NCBI GenBank assembly: GCA_002011745.1
Contig: MTOU01000042.1
Location: forward strand, 1 to 52,857
DNA length: 52,857 nucleotides
DNA from: Nitrospirae bacterium JdFR-85
GTDB lineage: Bacteria > Nitrospirota > Thermodesulfovibrionia > Thermodesulfovibrionales > JdFR-85
Reading direction: 5' to 3'
Below are positions 43,591 through 52,638 of the stretch, one piece after another. A program made the position numbers and the translations under genes. The first letter of the stretch is position 1. Each line of letters begins with the position of its first letter. The notes beneath the pieces are model-generated. The model did not search any database and was not told the DNA's origin. It saw nothing but the letters and a program-made list of their open reading frames with translations.

Positions 43591-44337
43591 ATGGAGGAGA
43601 AAGTTCTTTTCATTGGAAATAAAAAGGCATTAGAACTCTACGGGAATATTAAGTTAAAAACCTCACGAGTCAAGAAGTGCCTTTTTAGTGAAGCTCTCTC
43701 AAATATCAGAGACACAGAAATAGATATTATTGTGCTTGACTGTGGGTTCAGAACAAGAGAAGGTATAGAACTACTAAAAAGAATCAAGTTACTTTCACCA
43801 AGCACAATAGTAATCTTTGTCTCTGAGGCAAGTATAAAGAATACCATCTTGGAGGCATTCAGAGCAGGAGCTCGAGAATATCTCACAACTCCTGTAGACA
43901 TAAATAGATTAAAAGAAGTGATAGAAAATTTCATTGATATAAAAAAGACTACCAGAGAAAGACGGGTACCTTACTTTCTTGAACATGACGATACAGTATT
44001 AACACATGTTCCTTCAGATAGTATCTCCAAAGCAATAAAATACATAGAGTTAAACCTCTCGGAAGATCTCTCTCTTTCAGTACTCTCCCGCATAGCAAAT
44101 CTCAGCAAATATCATTTCTGCAGGCTTTTCAAAAAAAAGACAGGTCTTACCCCTATGAAGTTTGTATCAAAGAAGAGAATTGAAAGGGCAAAAGAACTCC
44201 TACAAAGAGAGGATATTACTATATCTACGATAGCCTTTGAGGTAGGATTTAACGATATAGGCCACTTTGTAAAAAAGTTTAAGGCCTATACAGGACTTAC
44301 CCCCACCTCTTATAGAAAACTATTCCAAAAAGACTAA
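43591..44337 (+). CDS. Pseudo-receiver fused to AraC-type DNA-binding domain
   Basis: 248 aa. The N-terminal ~120 residues have a receiver fold with an aspartate (VLDCGFRTREGIELLKRIK) and LTTPVDINRLKEVI, but the opening strand LFIGNKKALEL lacks the acidic Asp pair needed to bind magnesium. It is therefore a degenerate receiver, likely phosphorylation-independent. The C-terminal AraC domain has both helix-turn-helices: LSVLSRIANLSKYHFCRLFK and ISTIAFEVGFNDIGHFVKKF. It lies upstream of the Bax-like gene, next to paired operator-like repeats. No good ribosome site or -10 is seen before the ATG. Confidence 0.85.
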   Translation: MEEKVLFIGNKKALELYGNIKLKTSRVKKCLFSEALSNIRDTEIDIIVLDCGFRTREGIELLKRIKLLSPSTIVIFVSEASIKNTILEAFRAGAREYLTTPVDINRLKEVIENFIDIKKTTRERRVPYFLEHDDTVLTHVPSDSISKAIKYIELNLSEDLSLSVLSRIANLSKYHFCRLFKKKTGLTPMKFVSKKRIERAKELLQREDITISTIAFEVGFNDIGHFVKKFKAYTGLTPTSYRKLFQKD

Positions 44338-45322: not shown

Positions 45323-46381
45323 ATGAAGAGAAAATTTATCATATACCTATTCTTTCTATGTCTTTTCCTATCCCTTCCTGTCTCCACAATAGGCTCAGAG
45401 TGGGAATGTATAAAAAAAGGAGCTCATGCTACAGTGCTACTGTATCACAAGTTCGGTGAATCCAGTTCTCCAAGCACATCAATCCCTGTAGATACCTTCG
45501 AGAATCAATTAGCCTATTTGAAGGACAACAACTACAATGTAATCTCACTTGACAGACTTGTAGAACTCATAAGAAAACATCGTCCAATACCACCTAAAAC
45601 TGTAGTGATTACCATTGACGATGGTTACCGTTCAGTTTATACCAAGGCCTTTCCTTTACTCAAAAAATACGGATTCCCTTTCACAGTATTCCTCTACATG
45701 GAAGCAACAGACAGGTATCCTGATTATATGACAAAGGAGCAGCTTCTTGATATGGCAGAGTATGAAGGAGTAACCTTTGGTAATCACTCATACTCCCACC
45801 AAAGGTTCGGAAGAATGAAGAACAGAATGCTTAGAGAAAAGCTATCAGAAGACTTAGACAAGAGTGAGAAGAGATTCAATAAAATTCTTGGCCATAATCC
45901 CCTCTACTATGCCTATCCCTATGGAGAATATAACATAGCCTATGTTAAAACAATTAAAAAGAGAGGATACAATGCTGCCTTTACACAAGACCCCTTTACA
46001 GCAGGCTGTTTCTCAGATCCCTATCTCATTCCGAGAGTACCTCTTGTGGGGTCGTGGAGTAGTATTGAGAAATTGAAAGCCTTCCTTGATAGGGAACCTC
46101 TGCCAGTAAAAGGATTCAAACCTGCATTTGGGCTTTTGAGTGAAAACCCTCTAAGGAGGATATATTTCCAGGTGGAATTTATAGAAAACTATAAAAACTT
46201 CAGGATATATGTAACAGAACACGGATGGTTTAATCCTGTAGTGAATAGAAAAAAAGGAATAGTTTATATAGATAGAGTCCTTCTTCTTCAGAAAGACATT
46301 AATAGAATAGCCCTTCGGGCTGTGAATAAAACTACCGGCAGGAAGGCGTTTTTCTTTTATATGGTTATTAAGGAGTTTTAG
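45323..46381 (+). CDS. Exported polysaccharide deacetylase
   Basis: 352 aa. A signal peptide (IIYLFFLCLFLSLPVSTI) is followed by a NodB-type CE4 domain: VLLYHKFGE, the catalytic Asp pair in VVITIDDGYRSVYTK, the metal His motif TFGNHSYSHQRF, and YYAYPYGEYN. It should remove N-acetyl groups from peptidoglycan or an exopolysaccharide such as PNAG. The C-terminal ~100 residues (FQVEFIENYKNFRIYV) form a separate beta-rich domain. Its stop overlaps that of the convergent small cysteine-protein gene by 4 bases. Confidence 0.9.
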   Translation: MKRKFIIYLFFLCLFLSLPVSTIGSEWECIKKGAHATVLLYHKFGESSSPSTSIPVDTFENQLAYLKDNNYNVISLDRLVELIRKHRPIPPKTVVITIDDGYRSVYTKAFPLLKKYGFPFTVFLYMEATDRYPDYMTKEQLLDMAEYEGVTFGNHSYSHQRFGRMKNRMLREKLSEDLDKSEKRFNKILGHNPLYYAYPYGEYNIAYVKTIKKRGYNAAFTQDPFTAGCFSDPYLIPRVPLVGSWSSIEKLKAFLDREPLPVKGFKPAFGLLSENPLRRIYFQVEFIENYKNFRIYVTEHGWFNPVVNRKKGIVYIDRVLLLQKDINRIALRAVNKTTGRKAFFFYMVIKEF

Positions 46382-46545
46382 TTCTTCTTGTCTGTATCCT
46401 CACCTTCTTCCTTCTTTGTATCACCAATAGTCACATCCCTGACAAAGTCAGGACATCTTATATTTCTGCCAGAAAGGGAAAATTTTTTTTGACAGGTAGC
46501 CCTCCAGGCGCATACAGCACAGACCTCGGGTATCTCCTTGCTCAT
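46378..46545 (-). CDS. Small four-cysteine protein (55 aa)
   Basis: ATG at 46545 with AAGGAGG about 6 bases upstream; stop at 46378. It has a CAVC pair (Cys9, Cys12), WRATC (Cys18) and RCPDF (Cys31), a pattern that could bind zinc or an Fe-S cluster, then an acidic/lysine tail. Its ATG overlaps the stop of the nuclease-like gene (ATGA), so the two are translated together. It overlaps the end of the deacetylase gene by 4 bases. I recall similar small 'CAWRATC' proteins in anaerobic deltaproteobacteria, but this is memory, not a search. Confidence 0.75.
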   Translation of the reverse strand: MSKEIPEVCAVCAWRATCQKKFSLSGRNIRCPDFVRDVTIGDTKKEEGEDTDKKN

Positions 46546-47372
46546 TTACACCTCCTTCTTAAATAGTAGCTCAACACAGAGGATATATTACCCTCAATTG
46601 AGGGCTTGGAGTTTAGTATGAACAACCAATCCCGGAGTGAAAACAACTCTGCCTTTATTCTATAAAGCTCACCTTCAAAAATGCTTTCTTTTATCGCATC
46701 TTCAAAAAAAGGCACTATCTTGTCCTTCATCCTGAGATGGGTATCCACAAGAAATATTGCCATATCAGGACAGAGGTCTTCAACCCTTCTCAAGAAGGCA
46801 TCAATATCTCTGTCATATATCTGTCTTGGAGGAGAGGACTTGATCTCAACATATAAAATCCCACCATCCAGTTTAGCAAGCACATCGTAATCTCCGCCCA
46901 CGCTTCTGCCTCTAAATCTCACATTCCACATACTCTCCATCTGAAACTCTCTTTTGAGAACCTCTGATATAAACCACTCTAAGGTCTCACCAAAGCTTAT
47001 TAATCCTTCTTTCTGAAGGCGATACTTCTTCCTTTCTTTAACAAGAAGTCCTATCTGCAGGAGATATTCAGTATACTCTGCTGTAACTTCAGAAGTTGCG
47101 TATCTTGTCACATCTTTTAGTCCAAAACCCTCTCTCTGTTTAATCACATCCCGAAGGTATAATCTGAAAGCATACCTCTTCATCATCTCATAAAAAGAGT
47201 CAATAAATCTGTCCTCAGGCAGAAGCAGGTTCTCTATGGATTCTTTTTTAAAGATAGTAAACCCTCTCCTTTTCAACAGTACTTCCAGAGAGGGGGTAAG
47301 CTCATTCAGTCTCCTTCTCAGATAACTCAATTGAAATTTGAGATCATCATTATTTTTTATATCTTCATGCAT
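46542..47372 (-). CDS. Candidate PD-(D/E)XK nuclease-like protein
   Basis: 276 aa, soluble. The N-terminal ~90 residues are helical (FQLSYLRRRLNELTPSLEVL). A winged-helix-like middle (TEYLLQIGLLVKERKKYRL) leads to a restriction-fold core: GGDYDVLAKLDGGILYVEIK, where Asp163, Glu176 and Lys178 fit the D...ExK catalytic set, and Ser/Pro-rich KSSPP follows. The motif supports a DNA- or RNA-cleaving role; the target is unknown. It is co-translated with the downstream 55-aa cysteine protein and divergent from the Sfum_1244-like gene, sharing a 26-base promoter region. It could be an orphan repair nuclease or a defence component. Confidence 0.65.
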   Translation of the reverse strand: MHEDIKNNDDLKFQLSYLRRRLNELTPSLEVLLKRRGFTIFKKESIENLLLPEDRFIDSFYEMMKRYAFRLYLRDVIKQREGFGLKDVTRYATSEVTAEYTEYLLQIGLLVKERKKYRLQKEGLISFGETLEWFISEVLKREFQMESMWNVRFRGRSVGGDYDVLAKLDGGILYVEIKSSPPRQIYDRDIDAFLRRVEDLCPDMAIFLVDTHLRMKDKIVPFFEDAIKESIFEGELYRIKAELFSLRDWLFILNSKPSIEGNISSVLSYYLRRRCK

Positions 47373-47379
47373 ATCTAAA

Positions 47380-47385
47380 AGTATA
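47380..47385 (-). promoter_or_regulatory. -10 element of nuclease-like gene, leaderless type
   Basis: TATACT on the minus strand ends 7 bases before ATG 47372; TTAAGT 17 bases further is a weak -35. It overlaps the plus-strand -10 at 47384-47389. Confidence 0.5.
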
Positions 47386-47389
47386 TAAT
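47384..47389 (+). promoter_or_regulatory. -10 element of Sfum_1244-like gene
   Basis: Perfect TATAAT ending 9 bases before ATG 47399. No ribosome site; overlaps the opposite-strand -10 by two bases. Confidence 0.45.
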
Positions 47390-47398
47390 AATTATGAG

Positions 47399-48448
47399 AT
47401 GAACTTAAACAGTCTCATCCAACAGGTTAAACTCAACTGCAATATCTCAGATGCAAAATACTGGGGATACTATTCCATCTGCGGCATGTTACTCCGCCTC
47501 AGACACCTCTACCGGGTGGAACACTCTCTTAAGCCCTGGGAGAGTATTCCCACAGAGGATATTACTAAATGGATCTCAGAAAGGGAGGCCCTTTGGGAAA
47601 CCCTGCAGGACAAACCTCTTCAACCTATAAGGATTGAGGATAATATTTTCGATCCCTTCAGTTTTGAGGAGATTAATAACATTATTGAAAAAGAAGGGCT
47701 TGTCTATGGAGGAGGATTCGGGATGTTTAACAAGCCCACCTTCTTTCTTGCAAAAATTGAAGAGCTGAAAGAGGTGTATGACTACAAAGTCTACTATGCC
47801 GAGAGGGAACTATGCCGTGATATGTCTTATTCAGCCGCTATGGTGCAGGGTAGATGTATCTATATAAGGTTTGATCCTCTGTTGATCATGCTGTGGGAAA
47901 AACTGCTGGAGATGAGAGCAGGAAGGTCTTCAACACACCTGAAAGAGGCATTTGAGGCATTCGGAGTCTATCTCAACGCAGGACAAGAGCAGGAACTGTA
48001 CAAGAAGCTGGAGAAACTATGCAGAGAACTGTCACCTCTTCTGCTATTTCACGAAATAGGAGAGGTCTATGAGGATGAATCAATAGAACAATGGCTGAGT
48101 ATTCTGCAGAAAGCTAAAAACAGGGAGCAGGAACTGTATCTAAGAGCAATAAAAGACATTATGGCTGATACATCAGAACTTGGGCCTCTGAAATTTATAG
48201 TTGAAGAAAGGGATATCCGTCTGCTCCATTTCTATATAGCCCTGCTTGACAGAGAAAGAAGGGAACTCTTCCCCGAAATACTCACCTCTTATACTCTGTT
48301 CAGAGAAAACAGAAACTGGCAACTAATAGAGGATGCAAGAAAAAAGGGATATGAAAGGGCAAAGGAACTTTATAGAAAGATAATCAGTGTTGCACCAGAA
48401 GGGATAGAGAAGATAATTACTAAAGAGCTTTCCTCTAAACAATATTAA
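47399..48448 (+). CDS. Uncharacterised protein resembling the Sfum_1244 family
   Basis: 349 aa, soluble, mostly helical. The opening NSLIQQVKLNCNISDAKYWG and YYSICGMLLRLRHLYRVE matches my memory of the family named for Syntrophobacter fumaroxidans Sfum_1244, which has no known function. Other points are GLVYGGGFGMFNKPTFFLAK, LLFHEIGEVYEDESIEQWL and three or so conserved-looking Cys. It is divergent from the nuclease-like gene with overlapping promoters, which suggests related roles. Its TAA shares the TTAA at 48445-48448 with the stop of the convergent activase gene. Confidence 0.7.
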   Translation: MNLNSLIQQVKLNCNISDAKYWGYYSICGMLLRLRHLYRVEHSLKPWESIPTEDITKWISEREALWETLQDKPLQPIRIEDNIFDPFSFEEINNIIEKEGLVYGGGFGMFNKPTFFLAKIEELKEVYDYKVYYAERELCRDMSYSAAMVQGRCIYIRFDPLLIMLWEKLLEMRAGRSSTHLKEAFEAFGVYLNAGQEQELYKKLEKLCRELSPLLLFHEIGEVYEDESIEQWLSILQKAKNREQELYLRAIKDIMADTSELGPLKFIVEERDIRLLHFYIALLDRERRELFPEILTSYTLFRENRNWQLIEDARKKGYERAKELYRKIISVAPEGIEKIITKELSSKQY

Positions 48449-51400
48449 TAACCTCTGCGGAGTTGCCTCATTTTCTCTCTTGCCTGTTCCATAAAAGCCT
48501 CCATCTGTAATTGGGTAGTGGTTGATGCCGTTCCATCAAAGGGAATACTTATACAGGGAACTCCATATTTTTCGGATATACCTCTCATGATGGCGGTTAC
48601 TATTGTGCCTGGCATACAACCAAAGGGCATTGCATTCACGATCCCTACTGCTCCCCGTTCAATCATATCAATAGATTTCCCTATACTCAGGATAGCCTCT
48701 CCTTCAAAAGACTCATGCATGTACTCTGATGCCTTCCGAAGAATCTCCTTTGTAGTAGGCTCATGAAGCCTCCTTATAACACTCTCAAAAGGTGCTTCAT
48801 ACCTTTTTGCTACTCTGTTCTGATAAAATTGCTTCAGTAAGAACTGGAGTGTTGCTCTTATGTCCCTCTTTTTCAGCGCCTTCTTAAGAGACATGTAGTT
48901 TATATAATAAAGCCACTCATCAACAGGCGACAGATACACCTCTGCACCCAATGCCTCAAGCCTCCGCACAAGATCCTCGTTCGAGAATCTGTTTGACCTT
49001 ACAAATATCTCTCCCACTATTCCTATAAGAGGCTTCTGCTCATCAGTCTTCTCTATCCTGGAGAAATCCCTTGCCATACTGCTCACCAGCTCATCAATTG
49101 TCCCATTCTGTGATGCAAGGGCATCCCTGAGCTTCTGTACATACTCTCTGTACAACTCCTCTGTGACTCCCTTCTCCCTCTCATAAGGCCTTGTCTCATG
49201 CAGACACTTAAGCAGAAGGTCATACAGAACCACTCCCTGCCATGCCCGTTTTATAAAATCATTCCCCACAATACCGAGGTCTTTATAAAGGGTTACATCC
49301 TGTACAGGAGAAAACACAGGCACATCCGATATGCCTACCTTCTTAAGCACCATTCTTTGAAAGAGATTATACTGTCCAAACCTGCATGGACCGGTGCCTG
49401 AAGGCATGAAAAAGGCCGACCTCTCGGGTACAAAGTCAGCAGACAGTGCCTTCTTCAACATATCACCCGTTGTTACTGCACAGGGAAAGCACTCTTTACC
49501 AGAGACATACCTTCTTCCCAGGTCAAGGGCATCCTCAGAACTTTCAGGAAGCACCTCTGCAGGAATACCACAGTAACGGAATGCCGCCTCAATAGCATAG
49601 GCGTGGTCACACATATGGGGTATAAAAATGGTCCTCTTGTTCTTTGAGTCCTTTATCACGGTGTTTATTCTCTTTGGCAGAGGAACCCTCTTTTCTACAA
49701 GTTTTCCAGCTTTGATCTGTGCCTGAATGCTGTCAAGAAAGGCCTCACAGCGGGTTATAACACCCGCATCTGCACTATGCTCATCTATCTCTATATGGAG
49801 ATAGGGCCTACCAGCCAGTTCTGTCTCAAAATACTTCTCTATGAAGGAATCAGGTCCACAGGAGAAATTCCCTATGTATATTGGATAGAGGTTTTTGTAT
49901 TTTTTGATGGTCCTTGCTGCCTTCAGTATCCTCTGGCCAGATCGCCAGTACATATCCGGCCAGTCTTCATAAATATCCTCTTCATCAGGCAGAAAGTCCA
50001 TGGGAACAGAAGGGACATTCAGTGTGGCAAGCTTCTTTGGTATTTCAAGATTCACGCCCATATCAAAGGCATTGTAAGCCCTGCCCACTATAACTACTGC
50101 AGTGGTATTCAGGTCTGCAAGAAACTCTTTACCCTTCTGTTTTATTTTAGTATAGAAGTCCTGTTGAGCCTCCTCAGCCTTCTGCATGGCTCTTTTGAGT
50201 TCAGAGTCCTTAACCCCAAGAGGACCAAACACCCTCTTAAGCTCTTGATACATGTATTTGTCACCCTCTTTCAGTTTCACCACAGGGGCAATCACCTCTG
50301 CATCCTTAAAGGCCACCCTCACCTGATAGGGAAAGCTCTGTGTATAAGGACAGGCATGGCCCTTCTCATAGGGGTCCTCAGGCTGTATCATATTAACAAA
50401 GCTCGGGATAAGGAGCCTCTTTATACCTGCCTCAAGGAGGTACCTCACATGGCCATGGGCGACCTTCACAGGAAAACAACTCTCTGCAAGTACTGTCTCC
50501 ACACCAAGGGTCACAATATGCCTGTTTGTCCGGGGAGACACAACAAGGTCAAAACCGAGCTCCTGAACAAGAGTACTCCAGTATGGCAGAAACTCATGAA
50601 AGAAGAAAACATAAGGGATCCCTATGGGACCTCTCTTGGAATAAGAGGTATCTCGTTTTTTGAGCCACTGTCTGTGTGATTCCCAGAGGGCCTCTTCACG
50701 GAATGCAAAAAGATCGGGAAGGTCTGATTTAACTCTTCTCCGGATATCATACTTCTCACACCTGCCTCCATAGAACAAGAACTCTTTCTCACCTTCTATT
50801 TTTACCTTGTTTATCTCACACAGGTTTTCGCATCCTTTACATTGAAATGAAGACTGCTCATAGGGCCTGTCTGCAAGCTCAAATCCCTTGAACCGGCTCT
50901 TATCTCCGGACCTGTTCTTCATGTAATCCCTTGCAATCAAGGCCATTCCTATAGCACCTGTTACATCATGGTGTGGCGGTACAGTAATCTTCTTACCAAG
51001 AAACTTTTCAAAGGCAGCCACAACAGCCTTATTAAAGGCTGTACCTCCTTGAAAGAATATATATTCACCGATTCTTCTGCCTGAAACCACCCTGTTTATA
51101 TAGTTCTCTACAATTGAGTATGCAAGCCCTGCCAGTAGGTCATCCCTCTTTGCCCCTTTCTGTAGATTCGCCATAAGAGAGTTTTCCATAAAAACCGTGC
51201 ACCTTTCACCCAGTCTGCAAGGACTCTTTGAATGGAAGGCATACTGGGCAAACTCATCCTTTATAGATATATCCAGTTTTTCAGCCTGTTCTTCAAGAAA
51301 ACTTCCTGTGCCAGCAGCGCATGCCTTGTTCATCTCAAAGTCCACTATAACACCCTCTCGTAGACTGATGTATTTTGAATCCTGACCACCTATCTCAAAA

Positions 51401-52638
51401 ATTGTATCAACCTTTGGATCAATAAAGATTGCTGCTGTTGCCTGAGCAGTAATCTCATTCTTCACAATATCAGCACCAACAAAGTCAGCAATCATGTATC
51501 TGCCTGAGCCTGTTGTCCCTACACCCATAATCTCCACCTTATCCCCTATCTCAGCGCCTATCTCTCTAAGACCCTGACGGACAGCCTCTATAGGCCTGCC
51601 TGCAGTCATTAAATAACGTTTCGCAAGAAGTCTGCCTTCTTCATCAATAACAGCCAGATTGGTGCTTATAGAGCCTATATCAATCCCGAGGTATGCCTTG
51701 GTCTTTACTGTAACCTCTGTTAAGGGGAAGGTGGTATCCTTGCGGCTGAGATGCCTTTCTATAAAATCGTCTCCTTCCCCAATCAGTGGCCTGAGTGTAC
51801 CATCAGAAAGGGTTTGAGTATTCAGAGAAGTCCTGAGCCTGTCAATATCAAGCCTTCTGTATAGCCCCTCCTCTTTGGCCTTAAGGACCGCACCTATTGC
51901 ACACAACATCTCAGGATGCTCTGGAATAACCAGCTCATCTAAACCAAAGACCTCCCTGAATGCCCTAACCATCCCTTTATTAAGGGCAACACCACCCATA
52001 AATGCCACCTTAGGAGGAATCGGTCTCCCCCTCACTATCGTGCCCTTGAAGTTTCTTGCAACAGCAAAACAGAGCCCTGCTACAATATCCTCCACAGGAG
52101 TAGCTATCTGTTGGAGATGAATCATATCAGACTTTGCAAAGACACTACATCTACCCGCAATCCTGGGAGGATTCTCTGACCTGAGAGCCATCTCTGCGAA
52201 CTCCTCAATGCTCAGCCTCAGTCTCTCTGCCTGTTGATCTAAGAAACTACCCGTGCCTGCAGCACAGACCGAGTTCAGCGAAAAATCCTTGATAGCACCA
52301 CCCTCAAGTATCAGGAGCTTTGAATCCTCCCCTCCCATCTCAATCACTGTGCTTACCTCAGGATAAAGCCTTTCAGTAGCCTTCTGAAGTGCTATTAGTT
52401 CATTAATATGGGGGGCATCCAAAACAGAGGCTATGGTCTTCCCTGTAGTTCCTGTAAAAGAGACAAAAGGCTCTGGAAAATTTTTTGAAACCTCTCTTAG
52501 TATCTCAAAGGCTGTCTCAAGAGGATGTCCATGGTGCCGGCGATAGAGTGTCTGGATTAATTGACCCTTCTCATTTATGAGAACGAGTTTTATACTTACT
52601 GAACCTCCATCTACTCCTGCAAATACTCTATCACCCAT
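48445..52638 (-). CDS. Giant double acyl-CoA dehydratase activase (BcrAD/BadFG-like) with DUF2229/HgdB-like region
   Basis: 1397 aa. Two complete BadF/BadG/BcrA/BcrD ATPase domains stand in tandem. The first (~1-265) has AGVDGGSVSIKLVLI, EMGGEDSKLL, CAAGTGSFLDQQ and GRCSVFAKSD. The second (~310-570) has GIDIGSISTNLAVI, EIGGQDSKYI, CAAGTGSFLEEQ and GERCTVFMENS. The cysteines in the CAAG and RC motifs bind the 4Fe-4S cluster in known activases. A Cys cluster (CKGCENLCE, ~600), a DUF2229-like part (~665-880) and a C-terminal HgdB/DUF-like part follow. Known activases inject ATP-driven electrons into 2-hydroxyacyl-CoA dehydratases or benzoyl-CoA reductases. This fusion is typical of anaerobes, but its substrate is unknown. 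GGGAGG precedes the ATG. Confidence 0.9.
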   Translation of the reverse strand: MGDRVFAGVDGGSVSIKLVLINEKGQLIQTLYRRHHGHPLETAFEILREVSKNFPEPFVSFTGTTGKTIASVLDAPHINELIALQKATERLYPEVSTVIEMGGEDSKLLILEGGAIKDFSLNSVCAAGTGSFLDQQAERLRLSIEEFAEMALRSENPPRIAGRCSVFAKSDMIHLQQIATPVEDIVAGLCFAVARNFKGTIVRGRPIPPKVAFMGGVALNKGMVRAFREVFGLDELVIPEHPEMLCAIGAVLKAKEEGLYRRLDIDRLRTSLNTQTLSDGTLRPLIGEGDDFIERHLSRKDTTFPLTEVTVKTKAYLGIDIGSISTNLAVIDEEGRLLAKRYLMTAGRPIEAVRQGLREIGAEIGDKVEIMGVGTTGSGRYMIADFVGADIVKNEITAQATAAIFIDPKVDTIFEIGGQDSKYISLREGVIVDFEMNKACAAGTGSFLEEQAEKLDISIKDEFAQYAFHSKSPCRLGERCTVFMENSLMANLQKGAKRDDLLAGLAYSIVENYINRVVSGRRIGEYIFFQGGTAFNKAVVAAFEKFLGKKITVPPHHDVTGAIGMALIARDYMKNRSGDKSRFKGFELADRPYEQSSFQCKGCENLCEINKVKIEGEKEFLFYGGRCEKYDIRRRVKSDLPDLFAFREEALWESHRQWLKKRDTSYSKRGPIGIPYVFFFHEFLPYWSTLVQELGFDLVVSPRTNRHIVTLGVETVLAESCFPVKVAHGHVRYLLEAGIKRLLIPSFVNMIQPEDPYEKGHACPYTQSFPYQVRVAFKDAEVIAPVVKLKEGDKYMYQELKRVFGPLGVKDSELKRAMQKAEEAQQDFYTKIKQKGKEFLADLNTTAVVIVGRAYNAFDMGVNLEIPKKLATLNVPSVPMDFLPDEEDIYEDWPDMYWRSGQRILKAARTIKKYKNLYPIYIGNFSCGPDSFIEKYFETELAGRPYLHIEIDEHSADAGVITRCEAFLDSIQAQIKAGKLVEKRVPLPKRINTVIKDSKNKRTIFIPHMCDHAYAIEAAFRYCGIPAEVLPESSEDALDLGRRYVSGKECFPCAVTTGDMLKKALSADFVPERSAFFMPSGTGPCRFGQYNLFQRMVLKKVGISDVPVFSPVQDVTLYKDLGIVGNDFIKRAWQGVVLYDLLLKCLHETRPYEREKGVTEELYREYVQKLRDALASQNGTIDELVSSMARDFSRIEKTDEQKPLIGIVGEIFVRSNRFSNEDLVRRLEALGAEVYLSPVDEWLYYINYMSLKKALKKRDIRATLQFLLKQFYQNRVAKRYEAPFESVIRRLHEPTTKEILRKASEYMHESFEGEAILSIGKSIDMIERGAVGIVNAMPFGCMPGTIVTAIMRGISEKYGVPCISIPFDGTASTTTQLQMEAFMEQAREKMRQLRRGY

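Follow-up and report, generated by a model that had tools for sequence, protein, structure and literature searches.

A predicted PD-(D/E)XK nuclease with a Can2/Card1-like fold and its small four-cysteine partner in Nitrospirota

INTRODUCTION

The DNA analyzed in this study, referred to as the window, is a stretch of 52,857 nucleotides from Nitrospirae bacterium JdFR-85. A compact region within it encodes a candidate nuclease, a protein of only 55 amino acids with four cysteines and, divergently, a protein of 349 amino acids. An earlier note on this DNA had interpreted the three genes as one functional unit under a common promoter, which could act in repair, RNA processing, or defense. The locus thus raises the questions of what kind of nuclease is encoded, which of the three genes belong together, and which process they most probably serve.

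RESULTS

Gene layout of the locus

All three open reading frames described earlier (276, 55, and 349 amino acids) exist, with the following positions and strands.

46542-47372, minus strand: 276-aa nuclease, comprising an N-terminal helix (residues 2-25), a winged-helix domain (~54-119), and a nuclease domain (~128-276)
46378-46545, minus strand: 55-aa four-cysteine (Cys) protein, C-x2-C-AWR-x2-C-x12-C-x2-F, then a tail rich in lysine and acidic residues; site probably for Zn or Fe-S
46551-46556, minus strand: Shine-Dalgarno sequence AGGAGG of the Cys gene, read within the last nuclease codons (part of the terminal RRR)
47399-48448, plus strand: 349-aa Sfum_1244/DUF6866 protein, a divergent neighbor judged to lie outside the nuclease/Cys unit

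The stop codon of the nuclease and the start codon of the Cys gene share the sequence ATGA, and the AGGAGG motif was read 5 nt ahead of the Cys ATG. With this overlap and a ribosome binding site of its own for the second gene, the pair is laid out for coupled translation, as had been proposed. The start codons of the nuclease and the 349-aa gene are divergent and 26 nt apart, which confirms the compact spacing noted before. Three promoter-like matches were found compared to 5.3 expected in shuffled sequence, which is chance level; a shared promoter is therefore possible only, and does not serve as evidence for a unit.

The locus is embedded between convergent genes. A polysaccharide deacetylase gene (45323-46381, plus strand) shares its last 4 nt with the end of the Cys gene, and a Bax-like glucosaminidase gene lies upstream of it; both hold the same place in three related loci (L062, L091, and L117). 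On the other side, a gene for a 1397-aa protein (48445-52638, minus strand) with two BcrAD/BadFG activase domains and DUF2229, of the CoA dehydratase activase type, converges on the Sfum_1244 gene, and the ends of the two frames overlap by 4 nt. Farther away, positions 43591-44337 (plus strand) encode a 248-aa protein that, as judged by eye from the translation, resembles a receiver domain at its start and ends in an AraC-type helix-turn-helix.

Sequence and predicted fold of the nuclease

An alignment of 26 orthologues that share 49-62% identity with the window protein, and a structural model, delimited the following features of the nuclease.

47298-47369, minus strand: long N-terminal helix with the pattern LxxEIxRLRKxLxEL in relatives (alignment and model), at the position of the CARF domain of Can2
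47016-47213, minus strand: winged-helix-like domain, built in the model from four helices and a two-stranded hairpin, comparable to that of Can2 and VC1899
46545-46991, minus strand: PD-(D/E)XK nuclease domain, matching the fold of Can2/Card1 nuclease domains
46977-46979, minus strand: E132, proposed active site, at least 90% conserved in the orthologues
46884-46886, minus strand: D163, proposed active site, invariant in all 26
46845-46847, minus strand: E176, proposed active site, invariant in all 26
46839-46841, minus strand: K178, proposed active site, invariant in all 26

The alignment thus bears out the D163...E176-x-K178 core recognized in the earlier note. The same alignment contains no conserved cysteine. 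The AlphaFold2 model (mean pLDDT 88.3, pTM 0.87, from 26 sequences) runs from the long N-terminal helix through the winged-helix-type domain to a PD-(D/E)XK domain, so that the restriction fold set out beforehand as a check was indeed found; the region ahead of the winged helix consists of short helices only. Among PDB structures (Foldseek, VIA-align), the closest folds were Can2 (Z 14.5), Cdn1 (13.4), and VC1899 (12.8), with Card1 in the same group (Z 14.5-10.1) and Foldseek E-values of about 1e-6 toward these CARF nuclease structures. The next unrelated fold scored Z 7.9. In the best alignment, Can2 is matched from residue 135 onward, close to where its CARF domain (residues 3-151) ends and hence with essentially none of that domain.

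Sequence-based searches gave no family for the nuclease in Pfam, NCBIfam, or PADLOC and no significant match in PHROGs, and a search of PDB sequences returned chance-level matches only. Card1_endonuc (PF09002) did not match the window nuclease at E<=1, was absent among the families matched by its orthologues, and had no match anywhere in the window's genome. When the nuclease was compared with Card1-type proteins of the same phylum by hhalign, the D...E-x-K motif fell in register at a probability of about 1%, which leaves sequence homology to the CARF nucleases unsupported.

The 276-aa protein is, on the strength of the model, strongly predicted to be a nuclease of PD-(D/E)XK fold. It is folded like the effector half of Can2/Card1 and, by the tests made, stands outside that family; it may also work like this effector half. 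The N-terminal helix is a possible coiled coil for dimerization. Taken as a whole, the protein appears to represent a new family, unnamed in the libraries, within a known superfamily. A distant homologue (L245, positions 1253-2146) carries E-x-T in place of E-x-K and is possibly inactive or altered in its chemistry.

The best fold match, to the effector half of type III CRISPR nucleases, speaks for a defense effector, i.e., a Can2/Card1-type nuclease that has lost its CARF domain and is triggered at phage infection by the Cys protein, sensing metal or redox state, or by a different signal. The missing CARF region and the lack of a PF09002 match count against such an effector, and its genomic setting is considered below.

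The four-cysteine protein and its pairing with the nuclease

In an alignment of 25 Cys proteins, C9, C12, C18, and C31 are invariant, and so are A13, W14, R15, K20, F22, F34, and D37. From their spacing, the four cysteines are probably ligands of Zn2+ or an Fe-S cluster. The protein has no family in Pfam, NCBIfam, PADLOC, or PHROGs, and a plasmid search with it found nothing. A weak match of two Cys sequences to MRNIP (E 0.005) was judged to be low-complexity, and this identity was rejected.

The Cys domain was found in 71 of 198 Nitrospirota genomes. Nuclease and Cys gene are adjacent in 34 of the 35 Nitrospirota genomes that have both; in the exception, the two are split between contig fragments. 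Named genomes gave 76 readable loci. At 56 of them, the Cys gene lies within about 230 nt downstream of the nuclease, and at 25 of the 76 the overlap is exactly 4 nt; one of the other 20 loci is a nuclease-Cys fusion (L108). Single-chain fusions of the two proteins occur in two genomes (L222/L243, 338 aa; L227, 328 aa). In the model of a fusion chain, the Cys part reached a pLDDT of 44-51. This low value supports neither docking nor a fold; it would be compatible with metal-dependent folding and proves nothing.

Co-occurrence is strong across the phylum and absent within the window's order for every pair of genes (nuclease and Cys, p = 1.0), and therefore reflects phylogeny, so that the argument for pairing is carried by linkage and fusion. 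Because the ATGA coupling is conserved, the genes are adjacent almost throughout, and two gene fusions exist, the nuclease and the Cys protein form a true unit in Nitrospirota, and the 55-aa protein holds its place as the partner of the nuclease. The Cys domain is not dedicated to the nuclease, since 36 of the 71 Cys-bearing Nitrospirota genomes are without the nuclease. For example, L174, L175, and L180 have YjbQ-Cys at the site where relatives have YjbQ-nuclease-Cys.

The Sfum_1244 gene

The assignment of the 349-aa protein as Sfum_1244-like was confirmed by its match to NCBIfam NF045620 ('Sfum_1244 family', 349.8 bits against a cut-off of 150); it also matches Pfam DUF6866_N/C. No papers on the Sfum_1244/DUF6866 family were found in the library searched.

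The earlier note had joined this gene with the other two in one functional module. Besides the 26-nt gap, the divergent nuclease/Sfum_1244 pair recurs in L062, L091, and L117, and 25 of 48 nuclease-bearing genomes of the phylum also contain Sfum_1244 (p 4e-8, uncorrected), in favor of the proposed co-occurrence. The three relatives belong to the window's group in the nuclease tree, to which the divergent pair is confined, and the deacetylase and Bax-like genes accompany the pair there; as neighboring genes travel along in these relatives, the divergent pair represents local synteny. Within the order, the presence of nuclease and Sfum_1244 is unassociated (16/15/11/18, p = 0.31), so the co-occurrence did not hold at this level. 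Overall, 43 of the 198 Nitrospirota genomes contain Sfum_1244. Among the 25 genomes of this sample that have both genes, it is linked to the nuclease in two (G000 and G001) and located elsewhere in 23, where its neighbors are various, unrelated, and never constant. With promoter matches at chance level in addition, a single module of all three genes under a shared divergent promoter is very improbable. The three-gene unit was rejected, and the part of the claim that stands is the nuclease/Cys pair with its adjacency and fusions.

The Cys domain on THEP1-type proteins

In twelve genomes of the Nitrospirota families f18 and f19, the Cys domain is in frame with an NTPase_1/THEP1 domain in a protein of roughly 220 aa. 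It forms the N-terminus of these fusions (L235:3206-3871, L237:4328-4987, L238:4226-4879, and similar), which span L235-L242. The NTPase part gave E-values of 1.5e-47 to 9e-50, and PF03266 scored above its gathering score in L235, L237, and L238 (162-169 bits). In three genomes (L234, L238, and L241), the Cys-NTPase_1 gene lies directly downstream of the nuclease. None of the window proteins (nuclease, Cys, and 349-aa protein) matched PF03266; in the window's genome, an unlinked NTPase_1 gene occupies a 213-aa frame on another contig.

These fusions in two families bring in a further alternative, namely that structured RNA or tRNA is the substrate of the nuclease/Cys pair. THEP1 has been suggested to take part in tRNA/RNA work and was proposed to be an RNA/DNA modifying enzyme (PMC1079890), and Can2 cuts RNA as well as DNA (PMC7969007). 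Against a role in RNA metabolism, the genes that recur beside the nuclease across arrangements are DNA polymerase X (PolX) and, once, a RarA-like ATPase (see below), and RNA genes do not recur. We regard this alternative as unlikely.

Distribution and phylogeny of the nuclease

Of the 198 Nitrospirota genomes, 48 carry the nuclease, as do 36 of 148 genomes of a second phylum, that of L116's genome (titled uncultured Desulfobulbaceae bacterium); the names of the phyla are taken from record titles. The carriers are for the most part uncultured bacteria. In the second phylum, the matches do not reach into the Cys part of the model, and the loci examined there showed the nuclease with no Cys gene next to it. 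The Cys protein is therefore inessential to the nuclease. In the nuclease tree (77 rows), the Nitrospirota sequences form one clade apart from the second phylum (support 99). Such a phylum-wise structure is as expected for a resident gene. Within the window's order, presence is patchy (31 of 60 genomes); as about half of the genomes lack it, the nuclease is dispensable. A search of a phage collection and of viral contigs with the nuclease gave no match.

Genomic neighborhood

Genes resembling YjbQ, LpxK, or phosphofructokinase, together with other housekeeping genes, are the commonest neighbors of the nuclease; they keep fixed orders, which mainly reflect descent. At a minority of loci, PolX is encoded within 700 bp of the nuclease, in far-apart clades of two phyla and in three arrangements: downstream and convergent on the opposite strand (L069, L077, L081, and L118), upstream and co-directional (L115 and L119), and, in the second phylum, downstream and co-directional (L275, L279, and L283, overlapping in the latter two). 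PolX is also found just upstream of a nuclease-less Cys gene (L246). Furthermore, a RarA-like ATPase gene overlaps the nuclease start once (L263), and genes recognized by eye as RecO-like (L181), RecN-like (L174 and L180), and RecJ-like (L005) are nearby in single lineages.

The window's genome contains two Cas10-palm matches (128-132 bits) on contigs C13 and C17 (L198 and L199). The matching proteins are Cas10-palm-like, with large frames and GGDD motifs, and probably mark type III CRISPR loci of the host. Type III CRISPR-Cas was not found beside the nuclease, where the recurrent neighbors are housekeeping genes. The Cas10-like genes of the host and the patchy presence within the order add to the case for a defense effector; their location on other contigs, the conserved chromosomal surroundings of the nuclease, clades that follow phylum, and the absence of the nuclease from PADLOC and from the phages and viral contigs searched argue against it. 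Defense is thus weakened by the lack of a CARF domain, of a defense-system neighbor, and of any mobile-element occurrence, and we consider it improbable. Repair or maintenance is favored over defense by PolX in three arrangements and two phyla, the single RarA-like ATPase, and the chromosomal setting. As PolX is found at a minority of loci and YjbQ-, LpxK-, and phosphofructokinase-like genes are commoner, the repair assignment rests on weak context.

DISCUSSION

Proposed function of the nuclease/Cys pair

According to our proposal, the nuclease would be a metal-dependent PD-(D/E)XK enzyme that binds nucleic acid via its winged-helix domain. Its N-terminal helix would probably dimerize it, bringing two catalytic domains together in a Can2-like cleft, and the enzyme would work without a CARF second-messenger switch. 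The Cys domain, co-translated with the nuclease in Nitrospirota and fused to it in two genomes, would most likely bind the nuclease or its substrate, thereby tuning or targeting the enzyme. The likeliest role would be that of a chromosomal DNA repair or recombination nuclease working near PolX/RarA-type enzymes. We consider this whole explanation, a repair nuclease with a Cys partner in which metal binding, dimerization, DNA as substrate, and the repair role are inferred, somewhat probable. A bolder version, in which a resident repair nuclease is gated by a tiny separable Fe-S/Zn domain, an exchangeable module shared with THEP1-type NTPases, and in which the winged-helix/PD-(D/E)XK body of the nuclease represents the CARF-free stock that gave rise to CRISPR effectors like Can2/Card1, is distinctly doubtful.

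The results define an unnamed nuclease family in two phyla that has the fold of a CRISPR effector and no signal sensor, and that bears on the origin of the CARF nucleases. They also introduce an undescribed four-cysteine domain tied by fusion to both this nuclease and the THEP1 NTPase. Thanks to the nuclease-Cys fusions, a physical link can be tested using two small proteins.

Comparison with known systems

In Can2, four helices flanking two antiparallel strands accompany the nuclease core, and the same addition is found in VC1899 (PMC7969007). The active site of Tsu Can2 uses E302/K304, and Can2 is active as a DNase and as an RNase (PMC7969007). The window nuclease shares with Can2/Card1/Cdn1 (DUF1887) and VC1899 the winged-helix-like addition followed by a PD-(D/E)XK domain with a D...E-x-K site, and the similarity to Can2/Card1/Cdn1 extends over both domains (Z 10-14.5, about 180-230 residues). 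Unlike these enzymes, it has an N-terminal helix in place of CARF, no Card1_endonuc match, and an insignificant profile comparison apart from the aligned catalytic motif; it is located outside CRISPR loci and is paired with a Cys protein. Membership of the Can2/Card1 family was rejected for want of CARF, PF09002 match, and CRISPR-locus setting.

The combination of a PD-(D/E)XK domain with four cysteines, placed C-terminally in the fusions, resembles the iron-sulfur nucleases Cas4/AddB/Dna2. In Cas4/AddB, the cysteines belong to the same chain, one of them located toward the N-terminus and three toward the C-terminus (PMC3466216), whereas all four cysteines of the window pair are in a separate small domain that also occurs without the nuclease. 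As the nuclease itself has no conserved cysteine, an iron-staple nuclease of the Cas4/AddB type was rejected.

THEP1/NTPase_1 proteins (PF03266, COG1618) are linked to the window's Cys gene by carrying the same Cys domain as an N-terminal fusion in two families. The THEP1 protein aaTHEP1 hydrolyzes ATP and GTP slowly and has a positively charged surface; a role with DNA or RNA was suggested for it (PMC1079890). THEP1 has a human homologue, and its function was still unknown when the structure was published (PMC1079890). The Cys domain on THEP1-type proteins is possibly a clue to this function.
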